A program made the position numbers and the translations under genes. A stretch of 35,300 nt of DNA from positions 1 through 35,300 of the forward strand of contig CALJIU010000218.1 in NCBI GenBank assembly GCA_937974055.1, in the 5' to 3' direction. Position 1 is the first letter of the stretch, and the number at the start of each line of letters is the position of its first letter. The notes under the pieces were generated by a model that saw only the letters and a program-made list of their open reading frames with translations, had not been told where the DNA came from and ran no database searches. Source of the DNA: an uncultured Neomegalonema sp. GTDB taxonomy: Bacteria > Pseudomonadota > Alphaproteobacteria > Rhodobacterales > Rhodobacteraceae. Shown here piece by piece: positions 342-15,321 of the stretch.

Positions 342-681
342 TGGCCTCTCCTGTGATTGCGCGAGCCTTTCACAACAAGCGGAATACCTGTGCATTGGTC
401 GCTTTGGCTGGGGGTTGAGAAAGAGATTGAGCGATTTCCGATGCCGAACGTGGCGGGCCGCCACGGGCGTAACGCGAGCGGATGTCGGGGGCGAGAGGCG
501 GCACATCCGGAAACAAGCCGAAGCCCGATCCTTCTGTGCGGCTCCCCACCGCCTTCACCATCATCATCGCGCCGGTGACGAACCCGTGGTCCCCACTCCA
601 AACGCATCGACCCGAAGGAAAACACGCGAGGGAAGGGACCGGCCCGACACCGGAAACCGTTTCAGTTCAGACAGCTTTGCA
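342..681. other. Intergenic stretch without a confident gene
   Basis: No convincing gene is seen. A 65-codon minus-strand frame (370-567, starting ATGATGATG) ends 29 bases before the slipin start. It has no good Shine-Dalgarno and no recognisable domain, so I do not call it. The stretch may carry the leader and promoter of the slipin-like gene, but no strong -35/-10 pair stands out. Confidence 0.4.
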
Positions 682-725
682 GGCTGTTACAGGACTCGAA
701 CCTGTGAGGCTTTCGCCCTTACCAT
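682..725 (-). pseudogene. tRNA fragment: GNRA hairpin plus T-arm
   Basis: Directly behind the CCA of the tRNA-like element at 726-800 the minus strand carries a D-loop-like ATGGTAAGG, a 4-bp hairpin capped by GAAA, and a perfect T-arm (ACAGG-TTCGAGT-CCTGT, 689-705). This is followed by AACAGCC, which looks like the 3' strand of an acceptor stem. No matching 5' strand (GGCTGTT) is present upstream and no seven-base anticodon loop can be drawn. It therefore looks like the remnant of a second tRNA that lost its 5' half and anticodon arm. A working RNA of unusual shape is possible but less likely. Confidence 0.5.
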
Positions 726-800
726 TGGAGTGATGACGGGGATCGAACCCGCTACAGTCAGATTATCGGTCTGATGCTCTATCCAGATGAGCTACATCAC
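726..800 (-). tRNA. Degenerate tRNA-Ile-like gene, anticodon GAT
   Basis: The minus strand folds as a cloverleaf. It has a 6-bp acceptor stem (GTGATG/CATCAC), a TA linker, a D-arm with GCTC/GAGC stem and GG in the loop, an anticodon arm TCAGA-CCGATAA-TCTGA, a 5-base variable loop, a T-arm GCGGG-TTCGATC-CCCGT, then T and an encoded CCA. The anticodon reads GAT (isoleucine). Two oddities speak against a normal housekeeping tRNA. The acceptor stem has 6 pairs instead of 7, because adding base 801 gives a C-T mismatch. Position 33 is C where T is nearly universal. It may be a phage-type or decaying tRNA. The fold is directly visible; function is uncertain. Confidence 0.6.
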
Positions 801-896
801 GATGGGTGTGAACCACCGTTCCAGCGGCGATTGCCGAACACTGGCCTCGCAACATGCAAACCCAAGGGGCGCATGGGGACGGAGACATATTTTCAT
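792..896 (-). CDS. Possible 34-aa ORF with a perfect Shine-Dalgarno
   Basis: An AAGGAGGT sequence (complement of 901-908) sits 4 bases before ATG at 896, the strongest ribosome site in the window. The frame has 34 codons and ends in TAG at 794-792, inside the 5' end of the tRNA-like element. The peptide has three Cys (one CC pair) and no signal peptide or known motif. It resembles no family I recognise. It may be a leader peptide or a remnant of a longer gene cut by the tRNA region, or the match may be chance. Low confidence that a stable protein is made. Confidence 0.3.
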   Translation of the reverse strand: MKICLRPHAPLGFACCEASVRQSPLERWFTPIVM

Positions 897-908
897 ACGG
901 ACCTCCTT

Positions 909-1208
909 TCCTTGAGGCTCAGGCGGTTATTCGCCGAGGCAGGACATGCGGCGAATCGCGCTGCATTCGCAAGCCATGTGTTATTTTTATACCGCATCAA
1001 CGCCTCACATGTTGCTATTTAGCATCATTTTAGCGATTGAACGCCGTAAACGAAACGTCTACACCCTGCCAAACCCACCGCCACACGAGTTGCAGATGAA
1101 CTTTTCCCGCTTGTCCCCAAAGGGGCGCTGATGCGGTGACCGGGCGCTCTCGCGCCGCTGTCGCCTTCAGGTGCCCTTGCCCCCTGATTGTCGATGGAGT
1201 CTTCTCCG
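909..1208. other. Non-coding leader between divergent units
   Basis: This 300-base stretch separates the minus-strand tRNA/small ORF from the ABC exporter gene. Its centre (about 975-1045) is markedly AT-rich against its surroundings and holds a GCTATTTAGC dyad at 1014-1023 and TATAAA on the minus strand, so promoters for both directions are plausible here. No full -35/-10 pair with good spacing was found. No gene is supported. Confidence 0.4.
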
Positions 1209-4403: not shown

Positions 4404-5369
4404 CTAAAGAGCAACGACCTGCGCCTTGCCCTGCTCCTCGGCCAGCTTGGCGGCGACCGACGCGACCGCAAGATCCTGTAGCCCCACCCCCGTGCCATCG
4501 AACAGCGTAATCTCGTCATCCGAGCGACGCCCCGGATGGTCGCCATTGATGACCGCGCCGATGGGCGTGATGTCGCTTTCCTGTACCGCACCGGTCGCAA
4601 CCGCGTGCTGCGCCTCGCCAATGCTGATCGACTGCGCCACCTCATCGGTAAACAGCGTTGCGGCGGCGACCAGCGCCGGATCGACCTCCTGCTTGCCCTT
4701 CGTGTCGGTACCCATACAGGCGATATGCGTGCCCGGCTTGATCCAATCCCGCATCATCAGGCTGTCATGGGCAGAGGTAATCGTGATGATAACATCCGCC
4801 TCCGCACCCAACTGCTCACGCTCCACCGCCTCGAACGGCAGCCCCAATTCCTCCGCGACCTTACCCAGCGCAGGCAGCATGTCTGGATGAAAATTCCACG
4901 CCACGACCCTCTCGAAATCCCGCTGCTCGACCGCCGAACGCAATTGAAACTGCGCCTGATGCCCCGCCCCGACCATGCCCAGCACCTTAGAGTCCTGACG
5001 CGCCAGATGCGCAATCGACACGGAAGAAGACGCCGCCGTCCGCACCGCCGTCAGGTAATTCCCCCCCACCAACGCCGCCAATTGCCCCGTATCCGGGTCG
5101 AACAGGAAGATCGTCGACTGATGGTTCGTCAGCCCCTTATCCGCATTCCCCGGCCAGTATCCGCCAGATTTCACCCCCAGCGCCTTGCCCGCCCGGTCAA
5201 ATCCAGACTTGAATCCGTAAAGCGCATCGGCATAGCCAATTGCCTCACGAATGACCGGAAAGTTATACGCATCCCCCTTCGCCATCGCGCCGAAGACGTT
5301 CTCCACGGCGGTAAATGCCGCTTTGCGGTCGATGACGGCCTTGCAGACCTCTTCGGAGACGATGAGCAT
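4404..5369 (-). CDS. bhcD: Iminosuccinate reductase (beta-hydroxyaspartate cycle)
   Basis: A 321-aa member of the ornithine cyclodeaminase/mu-crystallin family with the nucleotide motif GAGHQA at residues 134-139 and the family's N-terminal GVKSGG segment. In the beta-hydroxyaspartate cycle BhcD reduces iminosuccinate to L-aspartate with NAD(P)H, closing the cycle. The family alone would not prove this; the order bhcA-B-C-D behind a divergent IclR gene does, since it matches the known Paracoccus cluster. ATG 5369 is chosen for its AGGA site and for homology beginning at MLIVSEEV; the frame upstream runs into the inverted-repeat element. It is 188 bp from bhcC, a large gap for this operon. Confidence 0.88.
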   Translation of the reverse strand: MLIVSEEVCKAVIDRKAAFTAVENVFGAMAKGDAYNFPVIREAIGYADALYGFKSGFDRAGKALGVKSGGYWPGNADKGLTNHQSTIFLFDPDTGQLAALVGGNYLTAVRTAASSSVSIAHLARQDSKVLGMVGAGHQAQFQLRSAVEQRDFERVVAWNFHPDMLPALGKVAEELGLPFEAVEREQLGAEADVIITITSAHDSLMMRDWIKPGTHIACMGTDTKGKQEVDPALVAAATLFTDEVAQSISIGEAQHAVATGAVQESDITPIGAVINGDHPGRRSDDEITLFDGTGVGLQDLAVASVAAKLAEEQGKAQVVAL

Positions 5370-5416
5370 GGGGAAATTCCTTTGGTTCGTGAGAAAAGAG
5401 CGATGCGGCATCTTCT

Positions 5417-5521
5417 CCCTCTCCCCGCTTGCGGGGGGAGGGGGGAGCAGTTCTACAACCAAGAACATCGCGCGAGATGTAGACCCCCCTCCCAACCCTC
5501 CCCCCGCAAGCGGGGAGAGGG
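5417..5521. repeat. 105-bp inverted-repeat (REP/MITE-like) element
   Basis: Two perfect 26-base arms (5417-5442 and 5496-5521) are exact reverse complements around a 53-base centre. Each arm also contains its own small palindrome (CCCCGCTTGCGGGG on the left, CCCCGCAAGCGGGG on the right). The element fills the gap between bhcC and bhcD. It looks like the dispersed GC-rich palindromic repeats seen in many alphaproteobacterial genomes. In RNA it would form a long stable hairpin that could end or slow transcription before bhcD, or protect the upstream mRNA. There is no transposase. Confidence 0.85.
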
Positions 5522-5557
5522 CTAGATGCGCCGACATTCAGACGATTCGCGAGTTAC

Positions 5558-6724
5558 TCAATACGCTAACCCACGCGCCGTCACCGGCCACAGCGTCTCG
5601 ACCTTGCCGTTCCGCACGCCCACATACCAGTCATGGACGTTGCAAGTCGGATCACAATGCCCCGGTACCAGTTTCAGCTTGTCGTTGACCTTCAGCACGC
5701 CATCCGGGTCCGCGATGACGCCATGCTCATCCGAGCACTTCACGTATTCCACATCGTCGCGACCATAGATGAACGGCAACCCGCTATCCACCGATTGCGC
5801 CTTCAACCCCGCATCGCAAATCGCCTTGTCGGCCTTCGCATGGCTCATAACCGAGGTCAGGATGAATAGCGCGTTCTCCCATTCGCCCTCGTCGATCCGG
5901 TTGCCATCCTTGTCTAGAATACGCCCGTAATCGGCATCCATGAATGCGTAAGAGCCACATTGCAGCTCGTTATAAACTCCCGAACTGCCCTCGAAATAGT
6001 AAGAGCCGGTGCCACCGCCCCCGACGATATCGCATTCCAGCCCTTCGGCTTTCAGTCCCGCAACCGCGTCCTTCACCATCGCAATGGCGATATCGGTCTT
6101 GGCCTTGCGCTCATCATAGCTGTCGAGGTGCTGCATCGCGCCCTGATAGGCTTGCAGCCCCGCAAACTTCAGACCCGGTGCAAAATCGATAGCCTTGGCG
6201 ATGGCAACGACGTCTTCCGTCGTCGTCACGCCGCAACGGCCAGCCCCGCAATCGATCTCGACCAGACATTCGATCTCCGTGCCGTGCTTCGTCGCCGCAT
6301 CCGACAGGTCGGGCACGTTCATAATATCATCGACGCAGCAAATCGTCCGCGCGCCCAGCTTGGGAATACGCGCCAGCCGGTCTATCTTCGCCGGGTCGCG
6401 CACTTGGTTCGAGACGAGCACATCCTTGATACCGCCCCGCGCAAACGCTTCGGCCTCGGATACCTTCTGGCAGCAGACGCCGCAGGCTCCACCGAGTTCC
6501 TGTTGGATCATCTGCACATCCACGGATTTATGCATCTTTCCGTGGCTACGGTGGCGCATTCCCGCATTCTTGGCGAAATCGCCCATCTTCTTGATGTTCC
6601 GCTCCATCGCATCGAGATCGACCACGAGGCACGGCGTCTGTATCTCACTTTCATCCATGCCGATGGCGGCGGGGATGTTGTAGCCAACCTCGTACTCGTC
6701 GGAAATCTTAGTAAAGGCATTCAT
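5558..6724 (-). CDS. bhcC: Beta-hydroxyaspartate aldolase
   Basis: A 388-aa fold-type III PLP enzyme of the D-threonine aldolase/DSD1 family. The N-terminal barrel has the PLP-lysine motif SHGKMHK (Lys63 by analogy). The C-terminal domain has the metal-site motif GHCDPTCN. In the beta-hydroxyaspartate cycle it joins glycine and glyoxylate to give (2R,3S)-beta-hydroxyaspartate. ATG 6724 has GGGAG 7 bases upstream. It lies 18 bp behind bhcB. The family also holds D-threonine aldolases and D-serine dehydratases, so the specific call rests on the neighbours. Confidence 0.9.
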   Translation of the reverse strand: MNAFTKISDEYEVGYNIPAAIGMDESEIQTPCLVVDLDAMERNIKKMGDFAKNAGMRHRSHGKMHKSVDVQMIQQELGGACGVCCQKVSEAEAFARGGIKDVLVSNQVRDPAKIDRLARIPKLGARTICCVDDIMNVPDLSDAATKHGTEIECLVEIDCGAGRCGVTTTEDVVAIAKAIDFAPGLKFAGLQAYQGAMQHLDSYDERKAKTDIAIAMVKDAVAGLKAEGLECDIVGGGGTGSYYFEGSSGVYNELQCGSYAFMDADYGRILDKDGNRIDEGEWENALFILTSVMSHAKADKAICDAGLKAQSVDSGLPFIYGRDDVEYVKCSDEHGVIADPDGVLKVNDKLKLVPGHCDPTCNVHDWYVGVRNGKVETLWPVTARGLAY

Positions 6725-6742
6725 AGTTTCGCTCCCATCAAA

Positions 6743-7714
6743 TCAATTTTTCATCCAAGGCAAGGACGCCATGTCCACATTGCCCCCGGTAATCACAACG
6801 CCGACGCGCTTGCCCTCGAAAACCTCACGGTTTTTGAGGATCGTCGCCAGCGGCACGGCACAACTCGGTTCGATCACGATCTTCATCCGCTGCCAAGTCA
6901 GCAGCATCGCGTCGATGATCTCCTGTTCGCTGGCCAGCAGGATATCGGTGACGTGGTTCGACACGAAATGCCATGTCCGCTCCTTCAGTGGCACTTTCAG
7001 GCCATCCGCCACCGTAACCGGCGCATCATCGGCGATGATATGCCCCGCCTTGAACGAGCGATACGCATCATCCGCTTGTTCCGGTTCGGCGGCATAGATT
7101 TCGACATTGGGCGCAATGGCCGAGAGCGTCAGGCACGTCCCCGAAATCATGCCACCACCACCGATGGGCGCGATCACGGCATCCAGCCCCTCGACCTGCT
7201 CCATCATCTCGCGCGAGCACGTCGCCTGCCCGGCGATGACGCGCGGGTCGTTATAGGGATGCACGAAATCCGCGCCTGTCTCCGCCACGACCTCCGCAAA
7301 GACCGCCTCGCGCGACGAGGTGGACGGCTCACACTCCACCACCCGCGCGCCATAGCCGATCATCGCATCCTTCTTCGCCTGCGGTGCCGTGCGCGGCGTC
7401 ACCACCGTCACGGGGATACCCCGCCGACCGGCGGCATAGCTCAATGACAGGCCGTGATTGCCTGACGAATGGGTCGCGACCCCTTTTGCGGCCTGCTCGT
7501 CCGACAGCCCGAAGACGGCATTCGACGCCCCCCGCGCCTTAAACGCCCCTGCCTTCTGAAAGTTCTCACATTTGAAGAACAGGTCCGCCCCGGTCAGGCC
7601 GTTCAGGTATTCCGATGTCAAGATCGGCGTGCGGTGAATATATGGCGCGATACGGTCATGCGCCGCGATTACGTCGTCGAAAGTCGGAAGATTCAGATCA
7701 TCAACGTCTTTCAT
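6743..7714 (-). CDS. bhcB: Beta-hydroxyaspartate dehydratase
   Basis: A 323-aa fold-type II PLP enzyme of the threonine dehydratase/serine racemase family. Visible are the PLP lysine in GAFKARG (Lys59), the SSGNHG loop (83-88) that binds the substrate carboxylate, and the glycine-rich phosphate-binding GGGG (185-188). There is no C-terminal ACT domain, as in serine racemase-type proteins. In the cycle it removes water from beta-hydroxyaspartate to give iminosuccinate, the substrate of BhcD. Its ATG overlaps the bhcA stop by four bases (ATGA), so translation is probably coupled. Out of context it would be called threonine dehydratase. Confidence 0.9.
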   Translation of the reverse strand: MKDVDDLNLPTFDDVIAAHDRIAPYIHRTPILTSEYLNGLTGADLFFKCENFQKAGAFKARGASNAVFGLSDEQAAKGVATHSSGNHGLSLSYAAGRRGIPVTVVTPRTAPQAKKDAMIGYGARVVECEPSTSSREAVFAEVVAETGADFVHPYNDPRVIAGQATCSREMMEQVEGLDAVIAPIGGGGMISGTCLTLSAIAPNVEIYAAEPEQADDAYRSFKAGHIIADDAPVTVADGLKVPLKERTWHFVSNHVTDILLASEQEIIDAMLLTWQRMKIVIEPSCAVPLATILKNREVFEGKRVGVVITGGNVDMASLPWMKN

Positions 7715-8904
7715 GCCGCCTCCTTGAGGGTCGCTCCCTTGCGCGTCAGGCGATAGTAGTCCTGCGCGGCGGCGACACCAGACCCCAACGTGATCGGATA
7801 GCCCAAATCCTTCATCGCCATCTCAATCGCGGCGATCCCAGACAGCGCCATCACATCGGTCAGCGATCCCAGATGCCCGATCCGAAACGCCTTGCCCGCC
7901 ATCTCGCCCAAGCCCACACCAAAGGACACGCCGTATTCATCGAAAGCAAAATCCGTCAGTGCCGTACTGTCAAAGCCCTGCGGCACATAGATCGCGCTCA
8001 CCGAATCCGAGTACAGGTCCGGCGTCTTGGCGCACAGCGTCATGCCCCATGCGGCCACGGCACGGCGCACGCCTTCGGCAATCCGGTAATGCCGCGCGTA
8101 AACGTTCTCCAACCCCTCACCTAGCAACATATCGAGGCTTTCACGCAGCCCGAACAACAATTGGATTGGCGGCGTGTAGGGGTACCCACCCTTGGCATTC
8201 GCCCCGGCCATATCGCGGAAATCAAAGAAACAGCGCGGGCAAGTCGCCGTTTCACACGCCGCCAATGCCTTCTCGCTAACCCCGACGATGGCCATGCCCG
8301 TCGTCAGCATGAACCCTTTCTGCGAGCCGGAAACCGCCAAATCGACGCCCCATTCATCCATGCGAAAATCCATCGAGCCGAGCGACGAGACGCAATCGAC
8401 ATACAGCATCGCCGGATGCGCACATGCATCCATCGCTTGGCGTATAGCGGCGATGTCGCTAACCACGCCGGTCGCCGTTTCGTTATGCGTGACCAGAACC
8501 GCCTTGACCGCATGGTCCGTATCGGCGGCGAGGCGCGTCGCAAAGCGTTCGGCGGGCGCTCCCGTGCCCCATTCGCACTCCATCACCTCGACATCCAGCC
8601 CGTGTCGTTCGCACAGGTCGATCCAGCGATGCGAAAACATGCCGTAACGGGCGACCAGAACCTTGTCACCGGGCGACAATGTATTCGTAATCGCCGCCTC
8701 CCATCCCCCGGTTCCGCTGGCCGGAAAAGTGATGACGGTGCCGGTCGTCGTCTTGAAGACCTTTTTCAGATCGTCCAGCAATGGCGCAAGCAGATCCACG
8801 AAATTCGGTGCCCGATGATCGCTCGTTTGCACGTTCATCGCGTGACGCAGGCGGTCGGGAATATTGGTCGGGCCGGGAATGAAGACGGGATTCTGATCGC
8901 TCAT
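7711..8904 (-). CDS. bhcA: Aspartate-glyoxylate aminotransferase
   Basis: A 397-aa fold-type I PLP aminotransferase of the alanine/serine-glyoxylate group. It has an N-terminal PGPTNIPDRL segment, the PASGTGGWEA phosphate-binding loop (61-70) and the PLP lysine in SGSQKG (Lys196). BhcA moves the amino group of aspartate to glyoxylate, giving glycine and oxaloacetate. ATG 8904 is chosen for the GGAGGA site 6 bases upstream; the frame continues upstream into an AT-rich leader that is clearly non-coding. It is the first gene of the bhcABCD operon and faces bhcR. Without the neighbours it would be called serine-glyoxylate aminotransferase. Confidence 0.92.
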   Translation of the reverse strand: MSDQNPVFIPGPTNIPDRLRHAMNVQTSDHRAPNFVDLLAPLLDDLKKVFKTTTGTVITFPASGTGGWEAAITNTLSPGDKVLVARYGMFSHRWIDLCERHGLDVEVMECEWGTGAPAERFATRLAADTDHAVKAVLVTHNETATGVVSDIAAIRQAMDACAHPAMLYVDCVSSLGSMDFRMDEWGVDLAVSGSQKGFMLTTGMAIVGVSEKALAACETATCPRCFFDFRDMAGANAKGGYPYTPPIQLLFGLRESLDMLLGEGLENVYARHYRIAEGVRRAVAAWGMTLCAKTPDLYSDSVSAIYVPQGFDSTALTDFAFDEYGVSFGVGLGEMAGKAFRIGHLGSLTDVMALSGIAAIEMAMKDLGYPITLGSGVAAAQDYYRLTRKGATLKEAA

Positions 8905-9099
8905 GTCGCTTCCTCCAAATTTGATGACGACAGGATACGGAACCCGTATGATTTTACAATTTTTTTGAAAAATGTTTTCACAATTATACAAACATGGTCC
9001 ATACTACTGTTTATACAAAAAAATTCATTATTCTAAAAAATGACACTTAAAAATAGGACCAAATTCCTAACCCATAACTCGCCACCCGGAGCACCACCT
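8905..9099. promoter_or_regulatory. bhcA/bhcR divergent control region
   Basis: This 195-base gap is strikingly AT-rich between about 8945 and 9070, against the GC-rich genes around it. It holds a perfect TATAAT on the minus strand (8988-8983) toward bhcA, but no good -35 at normal distance, which suits an activated promoter. TTATACAAA occurs twice in the same direction (8984-8992 and 9011-9019). Between them lies a dyad AAACA-N13-TGTTT (8990-8994/9008-9012) enclosing ATGGTCCAT. These are the best candidates for BhcR binding sites. In Paracoccus, BhcR is known to bind this promoter and respond to glyoxylate. Confidence 0.55.
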
Positions 9100-9930
9100 A
9101 TGGCCGACGAAGCAACCCAAAAACGACCACGTGGACGCCCCAAGGGTACCGGCGGCGACGCACCTACCGGAACGGTACAGGCATTGGATCGCGGTCTGAC
9201 CGTACTCTCCGCACTGGCCCGCGATGGCAAAGGCAGGCTGTCCGACATCGCCATGCGTGTCGGAATGCCTCCCTCCTCGGCCTATCGCTTGCTCACCACC
9301 ATGCAGGCCCACGGATTGGTCGCCTTCGATGAGGCGGGGCAAGATTGGATGATCGGCGTCGAAGCCTTCCGCATCGGCAGCGCCTTCATCGCTCAGGTCA
9401 ACGTCACCGAAGCCGCGCGCGAACCCATGCGCCAGTTAATGCGCGATACCGGCGAAACCGCGAACCTTGCCATCGCCGATGAAGGGGGCGTCGTCTTCAT
9501 GAGTCAGGTCGAAACCCACAACCCCATCCGTGCCTTTTTCCGCCCCGGCACGCGCGGCCCACTCCACGCATCAGGAATTGGCAAGGCGCTATTGGCCGAG
9601 ATGAACCGCGACGAGGTAGAGGCGATCCTGCGACACCGTGGCCTGCCCGAATACACCCGCCGCACCCTGACCACGCCAGACCGCCTCTTCACCGACCTCG
9701 AAAACACCCGCACCCGTGGCTGGTCCTTCGATGACGAGGAGCGGTATATCGGAATGCGTTGTGTGGCCGCCTCGATCTTCAATGCCCACGGCGAAGCAGT
9801 CGCGGGCATCTCGGTGTCCGGCCCCACCGTGCGCTTCCCTGATACACGCCTCACCGAAATCGCAGGGAAAGTCCGTGAAGCCGCCGCAAACGTGACGGCG
9901 CGGATCGGCGGTGTTGAGCCTGACCGATAG
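9100..9930 (+). CDS. bhcR: IclR-type regulator of the bhc operon
   Basis: A 276-aa IclR-family regulator. The N-terminal winged helix-turn-helix spans about residues 25-85 (core SDIAMRVGMPPSSAYRLL), followed by an IclR effector domain. BhcR controls bhcABCD in response to glyoxylate in Paracoccus, and its place divergent from bhcA supports the same role here. ATG 9100 is chosen for CGGAG 8 bases upstream; the in-frame ATG 9040 lies in AT-rich promoter DNA. Odd point: the first 19 residues form a basic tail with RPRGRPKG (9-16), an AT-hook-like motif that could grip the AT-rich operator. It converges on the Rieske gene with 6 bp between stops. Confidence 0.9.
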   Translation: MADEATQKRPRGRPKGTGGDAPTGTVQALDRGLTVLSALARDGKGRLSDIAMRVGMPPSSAYRLLTTMQAHGLVAFDEAGQDWMIGVEAFRIGSAFIAQVNVTEAAREPMRQLMRDTGETANLAIADEGGVVFMSQVETHNPIRAFFRPGTRGPLHASGIGKALLAEMNRDEVEAILRHRGLPEYTRRTLTTPDRLFTDLENTRTRGWSFDDEERYIGMRCVAASIFNAHGEAVAGISVSGPTVRFPDTRLTEIAGKVREAAANVTARIGGVEPDR

Positions 9931-12020: not shown

Positions 12021-14234
12021 CTATGTCGCAAGACTCGCGCGCCGTGCCGCCAGTTGCGACAGGATCACCGGCGCAGCCAAGATCATCCCCACGACATCAC
12101 TCTGCCAGCCCGGTGCCACAAGGGCGAGGCCCGCAATCGCCAGCACAAACCGCCACAATCCGTTCAACGGACGCAGCAAATACGCACTGAATGCCGCTCC
12201 GATGATGCACACACCCACGGCGCAACTAATCGATACCTGCAAGAACGACATGATCGTGAAATACTCATCCAGTACGATCAGCATCGTTGGCGCATAAACA
12301 AACACCATCGGCACCATCAACTTACCGATCCCCAGCATAAAGGCCGAAACGCCCGTGCGGAATGGATTGGCCCCTGCGATCCCCGCTGCCGCATAGGCCG
12401 ATGCGCAAACAGGCGGGGTGATCTCGGATATAACCCCGTAATACAGCACGAACATATGCGTCGCCAGCGCCGGAATCCCAAGCTGCGCCAATGCGGGCTG
12501 GGCAACCGAAACGAGCATGATGTACAGCGCCGTCGTCGGCAGCCCCGCGCCCATCAGGATGCAGGCCATCGCGATCAGCACCAGCGACAGGAATTGCTGC
12601 AACGATGCCTGCGCCACGATCTCGAACGGCATAAATGACAGCGCACTGTACAGCCCATCGGCCATCTGCGTTGCACCATTCGTCACCATGAATCCGACCC
12701 GGAACGCAACGCCAGTCGTATTGATGACCCCGATCACGATCCCCACCGCCGCCGCCGCCGCACCCACGGCCAATGCGTATTGCACCCCCACCGCAAGGCT
12801 ATCAAACAGCGCGCTGAACGGCTCGCGCGCCCGTGGATGCAGCAGACCTGCTGCCGTCAGGCCAAGCAGGATACCCGCCATCACGGGATCGAACCCCCCA
12901 TTAGACGCTTTCCAGAGCACGAACCAAATGAACGCCCCCGGCACAACAAGCGTCAACGGTTTCGAGAACCCGCAGAACCCAACGATCACGCACAGCATCA
13001 GCCCGCAGAACGCCGCCATATTCGGCGTGTAGCCACTGAACAAGACATAGAGCAGCGCCACCAACGGAATGATCGTCGGCCATCCCTCACGCCAAACCTT
13101 GAAGAATCTGGGCAATTCATCCTTGCTATAGCTGGGCAAGCCGAGGCGCAGCGCCGTGAAGTGCACGATCGACATCACACCAACGTAATGCATCACCGCT
13201 GGCACAATCGCGGCCACCACGATGGTCGTGTAAGGCACTTCCAGAAATTCAGCCATCAGGAAGCTGGCCGCCCCCATAATCGGTGGCGTAATCTGCCCAC
13301 CCGCCGACGCCGCCGCCTCGACACCCCCCGCGAAATGCCCCGGATAGCCCATCTTCTTCATATTCGGGATCGTCAGCGATCCGGTCGAAACAGTATTTGC
13401 GATGGAGGAGCCGGAGATCGTGCCGAAGAATGCGGAGGATACCACCGACACCTTCGCCGGACCGCCCGTAAATCGCCCCGCCGCCATCATCGCGTTATCG
13501 ACGAAGAACTGCCCCAGCCCCATCCGCTGTGCCACGACACCGAACAGGACAAAGTGGAACACCACCGTCGACACGATCCAAAGCGTGACCCCGAAGATAC
13601 CTTCCGAGGGGAAGTACATGTTGTTGATGAACTGCCGCCAATCGACCCCCGGATGCTGCAATATCTGCGCGGGCATGTAAGGGCCGAACAGGGCATAGAT
13701 AATGAAGACCGAGATGATCATCGGCAGCACCGGCCCCAGCGTGCGGCGCGCAATCTCCAGCGCCAGAACGACAAGGGCAGAACCAAATATGATGTCGGGC
13801 GTCGAGGGATCGCCCTGCCGCAACGCCTGCTCCGCGATCTTATACCCAAAGATATCGAGGCCGCGCCATGACAGCGTCAGGAAGAACGCCGCCATGATCC
13901 CGATGACCATGAACACCCAATCGTATAGCGGCACAGACCCATACCGCCACCACCGATCCGGTTTGTGGTCGAGCGCACCCGCCGTGCGAAACAGTGGAAA
14001 ACCCGCGAAGATCAGGATGAACAACCCGGCCAGATGGATGCCCATATGCTCGTGGTCCACGGGCGTTCCGAACCCGGCGGTCCACAGGTGGTAGAGCGCA
14101 AAAGCGATAGAAATGAAGTAGAGTACCCGCGACAGCGTCGGCCCGTTATCGCGGGTATTCAGCGCGGTATCGTACTTTTTCTCGATCTCGGCCAGTTCAT
14201 CGGCGGTCAGGGTCCGGTCGGGATCGACAGTCAT
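12021..14234 (-). CDS. TRAP transporter permease, fused small and large subunits (TAXI type)
   Basis: A 737-aa polytopic membrane protein. The N-terminal part (about 1-180) has the four-segment DctQ-like domain and the rest is the DctM-like domain with repeated Gly-rich helices. Visible motifs include SGSSIANTVSTGSLTIPNMKK and GGQITPPIMGAASFLMAEF, typical of the DctM substrate channel, and again GVISEITPPVC near the C-terminus. This fused form is the rule for TAXI-type TRAP systems, which import small organic acids or amino acids with a sodium gradient. It lies downstream of the TAXI binding protein, separated by a terminator hairpin. The substrate is unknown. Confidence 0.92.
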   Translation of the reverse strand: MTVDPDRTLTADELAEIEKKYDTALNTRDNGPTLSRVLYFISIAFALYHLWTAGFGTPVDHEHMGIHLAGLFILIFAGFPLFRTAGALDHKPDRWWRYGSVPLYDWVFMVIGIMAAFFLTLSWRGLDIFGYKIAEQALRQGDPSTPDIIFGSALVVLALEIARRTLGPVLPMIISVFIIYALFGPYMPAQILQHPGVDWRQFINNMYFPSEGIFGVTLWIVSTVVFHFVLFGVVAQRMGLGQFFVDNAMMAAGRFTGGPAKVSVVSSAFFGTISGSSIANTVSTGSLTIPNMKKMGYPGHFAGGVEAAASAGGQITPPIMGAASFLMAEFLEVPYTTIVVAAIVPAVMHYVGVMSIVHFTALRLGLPSYSKDELPRFFKVWREGWPTIIPLVALLYVLFSGYTPNMAAFCGLMLCVIVGFCGFSKPLTLVVPGAFIWFVLWKASNGGFDPVMAGILLGLTAAGLLHPRAREPFSALFDSLAVGVQYALAVGAAAAAVGIVIGVINTTGVAFRVGFMVTNGATQMADGLYSALSFMPFEIVAQASLQQFLSLVLIAMACILMGAGLPTTALYIMLVSVAQPALAQLGIPALATHMFVLYYGVISEITPPVCASAYAAAGIAGANPFRTGVSAFMLGIGKLMVPMVFVYAPTMLIVLDEYFTIMSFLQVSISCAVGVCIIGAAFSAYLLRPLNGLWRFVLAIAGLALVAPGWQSDVVGMILAAPVILSQLAARRASLAT

Positions 14235-14267
14235 TGGGTATCTCGATTTTCAAAGGGACAAAAGAAA

Positions 14268-14296
14268 ACGGCCCCGGACGTCTAATCCGGGGCCGT
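14268..14296 (-). terminator. Rho-independent terminator/attenuator inside the TRAP operon
   Basis: A perfect 11-bp stem (14268-14278 with 14286-14296, arms ACGGCCCCGGA/TCCGGGGCCGT) and a 7-base loop is followed on the minus strand by TTTTCTTTT. It lies between the binding-protein stop and the permease start, so only part of the transcripts would read into the permease. This gives more binding protein than permease, as is common for solute-binding-protein systems. Confidence 0.85.
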
Positions 14297-14307
14297 GGCA
14301 GTCGTGC

Positions 14308-15321
14308 TTATTTCAGCAGACCGGCTTCTTTGTAGAACTTCTCCGCACCCGGATGCAGCGGCACGTTCAGCGCGGCGATGCCGTCCAGCGCCGTGTCAGG
14401 CGTGATGACTTTACCCTTCGCGTGGCCATTATCCAGCAGCTTGCGCGTGTTCTTGTTCCACAGCGCCTTGGTGATGTCATAGATCAACTGCTCGTCCTGC
14501 TTGGCGCTGGTGGCGAGAATACCGCTCACCGCGAGGGTGTGGGTATCTTGCTTCACGCCAGGATACGTACCCGCCGGAATGACCGAGCGGATGTAGTAGG
14601 GGACGGCCTTGTTCCCGGTCGTGATTTCCTCATCCGAGAAGGAATAGAGGTCCATGCCCTTGGTATTGTCGAGCTGGATCATCGCGGCAACTGGCGTACC
14701 GGCGGCGTAGAAATAGGCGTCGAGCTGACCATCCGCCAAGCGTTCCGCACTCTGGGAGTTGTTCAGCTCTGCCTCGTCATAATCGTCACGGGTCAGGCCA
14801 TGCGCTTCAAGGATCAGTTCCACGGCGATCTGCGTGCCCGAACCTGCCTGCGCAATACCGACGCGCTTACCCTTCAGGTCTTTCAGGCTTTTCAGCTTGC
14901 CGCCTTTCGGCAGCACGAGGTGCAGATCTTCAGGGAAGAGATTGGCGATAACGCGCAGGTCGGGTTTGGCGTTATCCTTGAACTTCGCTTCACCATGATA
15001 GGCGAAGTAAAGCGTCGCCGCACCCGTAAGGCCCGCTTCCATCTGACCTGCCTGAATCGCGGTCACGTTATGCGCGGAGGCATTGGTCGACTGCGCGATG
15101 GCCACGAGGCCTGGAACGCCGCAAGAGCCACCCTTGTCGCATTCGCGAGAGCCGGGGGGGTTCGAGATTGCATTGGCGATGGCCCCGCCGATGGGGAAAT
15201 ACGTGCCGCCCGCGCCGCCCGTGCCGATGCGGAAGAACTTCATTTCCTGCGCAGTTGCGACGCCCGCGAATAGAACCGCTGCGGCCAGTGCCGTCCCGGT
15301 GAATGTCTTCATCAGTCCCAT
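14308..15321 (-). CDS. TAXI-family TRAP solute-binding protein
   Basis: A 337-aa periplasmic binding protein. The first 24 residues are a Sec leader (hydrophobic AAAVLFAGV, cleavage after ATA). The mature start carries FRIGTGGAGGTYFPIGGAIANAI split by the family's Gly-rich loop, typical of TAXI proteins, and GKRVGIAQAGSGTQ at about 150-163. A Cys pair (ECDKGGSC) near residue 60 could form a disulfide. It catches the substrate for the fused permease downstream. ATG 15321 is chosen for GGGAG about 9 bases upstream; a second ATG three codons on is possible. The gene is divergent from a LysR regulator that probably controls it. Confidence 0.92.
   Translation of the reverse strand: MGLMKTFTGTALAAAVLFAGVATAQEMKFFRIGTGGAGGTYFPIGGAIANAISNPPGSRECDKGGSCGVPGLVAIAQSTNASAHNVTAIQAGQMEAGLTGAATLYFAYHGEAKFKDNAKPDLRVIANLFPEDLHLVLPKGGKLKSLKDLKGKRVGIAQAGSGTQIAVELILEAHGLTRDDYDEAELNNSQSAERLADGQLDAYFYAAGTPVAAMIQLDNTKGMDLYSFSDEEITTGNKAVPYYIRSVIPAGTYPGVKQDTHTLAVSGILATSAKQDEQLIYDITKALWNKNTRKLLDNGHAKGKVITPDTALDGIAALNVPLHPGAEKFYKEAGLLK

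Follow-up and report, generated by a model that had tools for sequence, protein, structure and literature searches.

What is the element at positions 801 to 726 on the minus strand of contig CALJIU010000218.1, from an uncultured Neomegalonema sp., which folds like a tRNA-Ile with a GAT anticodon and an encoded CCA, and has C33 and six acceptor pairs? An earlier note on this DNA (positions 1 to 35,300 of the contig, the 35,300-nucleotide [nt] stretch called the window here) offered three options, namely a phage-type tRNA, a decaying copy, or a tRNA-like RNA with another job, and only the last of these held up. Of the three tRNA-like modules in a structured leader RNA (∼500 nt, about positions 940 to 433) that heads toward a slipin (SPFH/Band-7) gene on the same strand, the element is the second (module 2) and the best preserved. 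The minus strand, a second tRNA T-arm next to the element (705 to 689), and the downstream slipin gene had been overlooked.

The features that made the element look unusual were borne out. ARAGORN called a tRNA-Ile(gat) at 801 to 727 on the minus strand, and Rfam RF00005 scored the element at 51.9 bits compared to a gathering score of 29, with the outermost acceptor pair marked as nonstandard. Direct reading gave the same cloverleaf, CCA, and anticodon. Read on the minus strand, GTGATG (800 to 795) pairs with CATCAC (735 to 730) to form the six-pair acceptor stem, T729 is followed by CCA at 728 to 726, and the anticodon loop has C32 at 769, C33 at 768, and GAT at 767 to 765. The minimum free energy fold of the element alone was the cloverleaf, with an energy no better than that of shuffled sequences (z = -0.99). 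The element ranked second-weakest among the 34 tRNA matches in the genome, and the other tRNAs from the genome's fetched loci had T33 in 29 of 29 distinct sequences and seven acceptor pairs in 28 of 29.

The location outside an rRNA operon was also confirmed. There was no Rfam match to rRNA within the window, and the neighbors of the element are the slipin-like gene and a divergent ABC transporter. The usual partner of tRNA-Ile(GAT) in the rRNA operon is tRNA-Ala(TGC). Calls covering 30 of the 34 tRNA matches included neither another tRNA-Ile(GAT) nor a tRNA-Ala(TGC). However, the draft genome (78.7% complete) had no match to 16S rRNA, and thus the normal tRNA-Ile(GAT) gene is probably unassembled and its absence provides no argument. 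A canonical tRNA-Ile(GAT) was likewise not shown in the 12 genus loci checked, where an approximate tRNA-Ile query matched tRNA-Met, tRNA-Arg, and tRNA-Asp genes.

Relatives of the element were reached mainly through the slipin. When 198 genomes of the family were searched by DNA, 108 had matches, and the loci inspected among these were mostly ordinary tRNAs. Of the inspected matches, only the two best outside the window (L003 and L004) led to the module, with tRNA-like pieces before a Band-7 gene; the eight loci inspected next proved to be tRNA-Arg genes. A search with the slipin protein yielded 179 relatives. The best 80 of these were retained and come from Rhodobacteraceae, Rhizobiales, Sphingomonadales, and others. 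The label of one record, Oceanobacillus (L056), is doubtful because it gives the same reading as L111 of the window's family, to which it is identical over the stretches displayed. T-arm motifs were found about -580 to -320 from the slipin match start in all 80 loci, and ARAGORN detected at least one cloverleaf in 78 of them, with "anticodons" for Lys, Leu, Ile, Gln, Asn, Thr, Met, stop, undetermined, and others. A T-arm motif was present in 88 of 88 upstream regions (L024 to L103, L105 to L107, L109 to L111, L114, and the window), compared to 0.85 expected after shuffling; at least L111 and L114 duplicate L056 and L041 over this stretch, and identical rows were removed before alignment. Slipin was the sole gene cluster common to all 80 loci, antisense frames aside, and the gene upstream of the leader varied by lineage. 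In the loci examined, the leader preceded, in the same orientation, a slipin gene encoding an extra N-terminal domain. Each leader carried one to three modules in tandem, as full cloverleafs or as a T-arm half only, and in several loci tandem cloverleafs abut each other before the coding gene. T-arm spacings in the 88 regions fell into two groups, mostly 71 to 79 nt (two full modules) and 42 to 52 nt (one module halved), which suggests stepwise loss of cloverleaf halves.

The pairing of the leader is preserved in these relatives by compensatory changes. In the alignment of module 2 (A3), which held 72 of 81 distinct rows after three with long variable arms (L024, L026, and L037) and six Mesorhizobium near-duplicates were left out, 95.6% of cells in 20 pairs were paired, with 334 double-change cells, compared to 35 to 47% paired when the pairing partners were slid; the covariation counts are inflated by sequence relatedness, and the slid controls are safer. 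This pattern speaks against the decaying copy that the earlier note had considered. The D-stem had no double changes because it is nearly invariant, and the acceptor helix was the weakest, with 85.2% of cells paired. A compensated pair distinguishes the T-stems of two E. coli strains. The 5' domain (alignment A2; 60 of 80 distinct rows, with L058, L062, L065, L068, and L110 dropped first for short or odd starts) had 95.5% of cells paired over 14 pairs and double changes in 12 of the 14, and none of 500 shuffles was as high on cells paired or on covariation score. In the 3' domain, after the modules, a 14-bp long-range stem joins both ends of a ∼200-nt stretch. This stem was 93.2% paired in 88 loci and 91.1% paired in 54 nonredundant loci (142 double-change cells), whereas slid partners gave 31 to 62% and none of 300 shuffles exceeded 75.8%. 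At least 12 pairs formed in 80 of the 88 loci, and 10 formed in two. In the window 14 of 14 pairs form, and the stretch from 940 to 430 folds at z = -3.0.

The modules hardly vary at the tRNA elbow (D- and T-arm) but preserve neither the anticodon nor U33, the acceptor length, or CCA, and so they do not decode. Among the 72 modules, position 33 was T in 52, C in 15, A in 4, and G in 1, and the anticodon letters formed 24 different strings, 3 of them with a gap. Seven or more contiguous acceptor pairs were found in only 4 modules, and 61 had 3 to 6. CCA followed module 2 only in the window, L105, and L032 (3 of 72). Each of the five assessable genus members had a different anticodon, GAT in the window and TAT, TAA, TGT, and TCT in the others; a sixth member with the slipin (G199) provided only ∼250 nt of upstream DNA. 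Even where the nearest slipin was at least 85% identical, the anticodon was shared in only 7 of 40 loci. In 24 Mesorhizobium leaders, the anticodon loop of module 2 had 1.02 bits per position, compared to 0.12 to 0.15 in the rest of module 2 and the 5' domain, and single positions elsewhere reached 1.5 to 1.9. Diversifying selection on the anticodon was considered and is not supported, other leader positions being equally variable.

Features of the leader and slipin gene in the window
Feature	Positions	Strand	Description and basis
Tentative promoter block (weak)	943..972	-	TTGCGAAT (972-965) and CATGTC (948-943)
5' domain of leader	842..939	-	Two covarying hairpins, including CATGC..GCATG at 875-853; alignment A2
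Module 1 remnant	801..817	-	T-arm-like hairpin GGTGG-TTCACAC-CCATC; full module 1 at this place in other loci; by eye
tRNA-like module 2	726..801	-	ARAGORN; Rfam, 51.9 bits; alignment A3; covariation
Module 3 remnant	689..718	-	Hairpin GGGC-GAAA-GCCT (718-707) and T-arm ACAGG-TTCGAGT-CCTGT (705-689); reading and folding
3' domain of leader	433..658	-	Closed by 14-bp stem, arms 658-645 and 446-433
Ribosome-binding-site-like CAGGAGAGG	345..353	-	Before slipin start; direct reading
Slipin-family gene, N-terminal 113 codons	3..341	-	Cut by contig edge; comparison with P0001

The layout of the module 3 remnant is the same in congeners and in other Rhodobacteraceae. The promoter block is weak because a sigma-70 scan found nothing at its threshold; the TTGCGAAT..CATGT pattern is kept in two of four congeners (L105 and L106) and not in L107 and L109. 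Many other Alphaproteobacterial loci have, by eye, TTGA-CGAATC..CTAT or TTGCGACAAC..CTATAG just 5' of the 5' domain. A 34-codon open reading frame (896 to 792, minus strand; MKICL...) with a strong Shine-Dalgarno sequence, AAAGGAGG (909 to 902), starts in the 5' domain and ends inside module 2. Its first part is nearly identical in three congeners (L105 to L107), with the frame broken in L106. It was dropped as a candidate leader peptide: it coincides with the conserved 5' hairpin, the break in L106 comes early in the frame (by eye), and the other families displayed had no ATG at that place.

The protein encoded downstream is of the slipin family. Over the part that aligns, the window fragment shares 34% identity with the full-length slipin P0001. 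The fragment had no Pfam match of its own; P0001 matched Band_7 at 1.6e-30. A predicted slipin model (mean pLDDT, 87.9; pTM, 0.65) aligned with stomatin over residues 131 to 336 (Z = 15.3) and with major vault protein over residues 13 to 358 (Z = 11.3; root mean square deviation [rmsd], 6.5; 247 aligned residues). The N-terminal domain alone had weak fold matches, the best being HflK at Z = 4.0. The vault resemblance of the predicted model is a lead rather than evidence of membership. The slipin had no relatives in 50,697 phage records and no close relatives in IMG/VR, and the neighboring genes look chromosomal, so the earlier suggestion of a phage-type tRNA was not upheld. Matches in the plasmid collection were mostly megabase records and are not taken to indicate plasmid carriage.

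The association of leader and slipin was also seen in wider scans. Among the matches listed for 385 genomes of the class, the N-extended slipin was found in six (G000, which has only a cut slipin N terminus, G377, G474, G426, G210, and G542), and shorter slipins were common. A model of the 5' domain (R1), run with strict filters, matched 3 of the 385 genomes, all of them among these six and with this slipin nearby. The training set of R1 included the window and G377 (L092), so that G474 is the independent match; in the window genome R1 gave a single match, the window row being part of the model. The G474 locus (L158) lies outside the T-arm pattern and has variants of the pattern by eye. Ordinary slipins had a tRNA upstream in 1 of 24 cases (L168, a tRNA-Thr ∼125 nt upstream), with only ∼300 nt of upstream DNA for L185.

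In a phylum-wide scan with the N-terminal domain, 24 of 398 genomes matched. In the 22 loci analyzed (which exclude the window's locus and a weak, partial match in G780), T-arm motifs were found ∼220 to 630 nt before the match start in 21, which were all 21 assessable loci, L200 having only ∼100 nt of upstream DNA. ARAGORN found no cloverleaf in 5 of the 21, which had T-arms only. A divergent rtcR gene adjoins the slipin in 6 of the 22 loci, with a sigma-54-like site in five; the sigma-54 pattern had no match in the 88 upstream regions, and the divergent neighbor in the window is the ABC transporter, not rtcR. In Citrobacter, rtcR faces the slipin and a nucleotidyltransferase gene, a sigma-54-like site is present, and the leader has one T-arm and no cloverleaf. 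In Burkholderia, a module lies beside rtcR with a sigma-54-like site (tblastn). One E. coli locus has a sigma-54-like site and one T-arm, and rtcR is not adjacent. Two T-arms are present in a record labeled Subdoligranulum (Bacillota). Among 5,426 complete E. coli genomes, 1,621 (∼30%) contain 80% or more of such a slipin locus. The nucleotidyltransferase-domain gene follows the slipin in both E. coli and Citrobacter (L190, 9149 to 9934; L189, 9137 to 9928; L193, 6697 to 7488), and the Citrobacter protein had no NCBIfam match up to E = 0.01.

How might such an RNA act on the slipin gene? We infer that the leader is cotranscribed with the slipin and acts in cis, because no terminator-like site was found between module and slipin in the window, the intervening gap is filled by the 3' domain, and a minigene with a Shine-Dalgarno sequence precedes the slipin in 76 of 88 loci. 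The minigene (a start codon, 1 to 5 codons, and a stop) was expected in 7 loci after shuffling. In L024 to L103 it lies about 25 to 70 nt upstream of the slipin match start. Its form is ATG-NNN-TGA with a variable middle codon in Mesorhizobium, and in most Rhodobacteraceae it is TTG-CGA-CGA-CGA-TAG (TTGCGACGACGATAG) or a near form. We consider it reasonably likely that a leader RNA mimicking tRNA tunes slipin synthesis. The leader, transcribed together with the slipin, would present its tRNA-shaped elbow in cis to a tRNA-binding factor, which could be a tRNA maturation enzyme, a tRNA-cutting nuclease, the ribosome, or the slipin itself. Binding or cutting at the elbow would alter the 3' domain and hence slipin translation, and slipin would thereby be coupled to tRNA or translation stress. 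In favor of the stress coupling are the loci in Citrobacter, Burkholderia, and five others of the phylum where the leader adjoins rtcR with a sigma-54-like site.

Several observations weigh against this reading. Colinearity is conditional because all loci except those matched by the 5'-domain model were found through the slipin or the first DNA search. R1 missed G426, G210, and G542, whose slipins also have upstream T-arms, and therefore the 5' domain diverges. The 14-bp stem has eight pairs or fewer in 6 of the 88 loci, where it is missing or misaligned. The minigene is lacking in all five loci of the window's genus, and the Alphaproteobacterial promoter is a visual pattern only. The free variation of the anticodon may be a mere lack of constraint, because other leader positions vary as much. 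RtcB, which had no match in the window genome (78.7% complete), was present in 4 of 15 other slipin genomes checked and absent in 11, among them all five congeners, and RtcR was found in none of five congeners with the slipin (86 to 98% complete). Thus, any link to RNA repair does not hold generally, and a reading in terms of RNA repair only was dropped. Since rtcR and rtcB were not found in the five congeners, the pair of RNA and slipin appears to stand without the repair enzymes.

The main rival to a cis-acting leader is that the RNA is excised and works in trans as a stable tRNA-like partner of a slipin ring, as Y RNA does for Ro60/Rsr. Rsr forms rings. A nearly invariant elbow with a free anticodon would suit such a partner, as would the persistence of the module with slipin where rtcR and rtcB were not found. 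The two-module junction resembles the Rfam YrlA family, below threshold (34.3 bits compared to 69), and the slipin model aligns with major vault protein, another ribonucleoprotein shell. However, the 3' domain and, in most loci, the minigene extend to the slipin start, as expected of a leader; the likeness to YrlA is perhaps common to any tandem tRNA-like pair; and the N-terminal domain alone had no fold match above Z = 4.0. We regard a partner in trans as possible, though somewhat unlikely. It is quite improbable that the modules are processing signals only, at which RNase P or RNase Z would trim the slipin messenger as at tRNA-mRNA junctions. Abutting tandem cloverleafs before a coding gene are what such trimming would use, but several loci keep just T-arm halves beside one cloverleaf, and two further conserved domains would be superfluous. 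Acceptor stems as short as the 3 to 6 contiguous pairs of most modules are also poor substrates.

An ordinary or slightly degenerate tRNA-Ile(GAT) that still decodes would explain the cloverleaf, the CCA, and the Rfam score above the gathering score, and no other tRNA-Ile(GAT) was among the calls, which covered 30 of the 34 matches in the draft genome. This possibility seems very improbable given C33, the six acceptor pairs, four other anticodons at the same place in congeners, the rarity of CCA in relatives, and a draft in which the normal gene was probably unassembled. That the element is a decaying tRNA copy or a remnant of a phage or island tRNA is hardly credible: partial tRNA pieces do flank it (801 to 817 and 689 to 718), but stems changed in a compensatory manner across 72 loci, place, order, and gene partner were constant in 80 of 80 relatives found by slipin, and no relatives of the slipin were found in phage records. 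A broader idea built on the leader, which we think doubtful, is that tandem tRNA mimics with changing anticodon loops serve as bait that reports tRNA damage, for example by anticodon nucleases, and that induces or joins a vault- or stomatin-like ring protein. The result would be a membrane ribonucleoprotein of translation stress, with or without Rtc enzymes, and a large undescribed bacterial RNA family.

Elsewhere in the window, the genes at 4404 to 9930 encode, from their translations, an ornithine-cyclodeaminase-like reductase, an aldolase/epimerase-like enzyme, a dehydratase, an aminotransferase, and an IclR-type regulator, a cluster that we take to resemble the beta-hydroxyaspartate cycle. 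A TRAP transporter fusion protein beside a TAXI-type solute receptor, also by reading of translations, is encoded at 12021 to 15321 on the minus strand.

No Rfam family beyond generic tRNA fits the leader. At permissive thresholds, three leaders matched only tRNA, YrlA, and a plastid element on the opposite strand of L071, and the Citrobacter leader had only a 15-nt T-arm match (E = 0.93). T-box leaders are structured RNAs that bind tRNA. The leader described here is likewise structured and tied to tRNA, but it itself resembles tRNA, and no T-box match was found in Rfam for the leaders scanned. YrlA (RF02553; gathering score, 69) did not appear for the window at E values up to 1 and scored 34.3 and 18.6 bits in two relatives, below the gathering score. 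A literature search found no other description of such an RNA family in the texts consulted, and an earlier notice elsewhere is possible.

The closest parallel is the "mutant tRNA" Pcar_R0061 of Pelobacter carbinolicus. As described, it keeps its cloverleaf through reciprocal mutations, has lost U33, has an abnormal acceptor end, and lies just upstream of a stomatin-like gene, and its authors read it as not a pseudogene and discussed it as a substrate, guide, or modulator of Asn-tRNA synthesis (PMC3543383). The window has the same kind of arrangement, a non-decoding cloverleaf directly ahead of a stomatin/slipin gene in the same orientation. Pcar_R0061 differs in being a single case from one genome, with rtcA and rtcB after it and rtcR divergent, and the account consulted describes no tandem modules, flanking domains, or family, unlike the leader here (PMC3543383). 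Judged by the paper's description, not by sequence, Pcar_R0061 looks like one case of the same arrangement (PMC3543383).

Other systems share parts of this organization. YrlA and Y RNAs of rsr-yrlBA-rtcBA operons are noncoding RNAs with a tRNA-like domain, encoded in an RtcR-type operon beside Rsr, and damaged tRNAs are the reported signal for rtc operons (PMC7790460). The partner here is a slipin rather than a TROVE protein, and the leader has tandem cloverleafs and flanking domains (compare PMC7790460). PaFlo8 of Pseudomonas aeruginosa is an SPFH gene within an rtcR-rtcB-rtcA locus, but the main text of that paper does not use the term tRNA (PMC13086221). In Anabaena, one repressor with a link to translation stress controls a slipin gene, rtcB, and a silent array of additional tRNAs (the TrcR regulon); that array differs in comprising 26 tRNA genes on a megaplasmid and is not a slipin leader (PMC10272220). 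The RNA family described here, which extends across Pseudomonadota and one record labeled Bacillota (Subdoligranulum), is easily overlooked as odd or pseudo tRNAs because gene finders call many of its modules tRNAs. The presence of the locus in ∼30% of complete E. coli genomes makes the family testable in ordinary laboratories. The leader connects the SPFH genes of rtc loci, the Pelobacter "mutant tRNA," and the tRNA-like RNAs in RNA repair operons.
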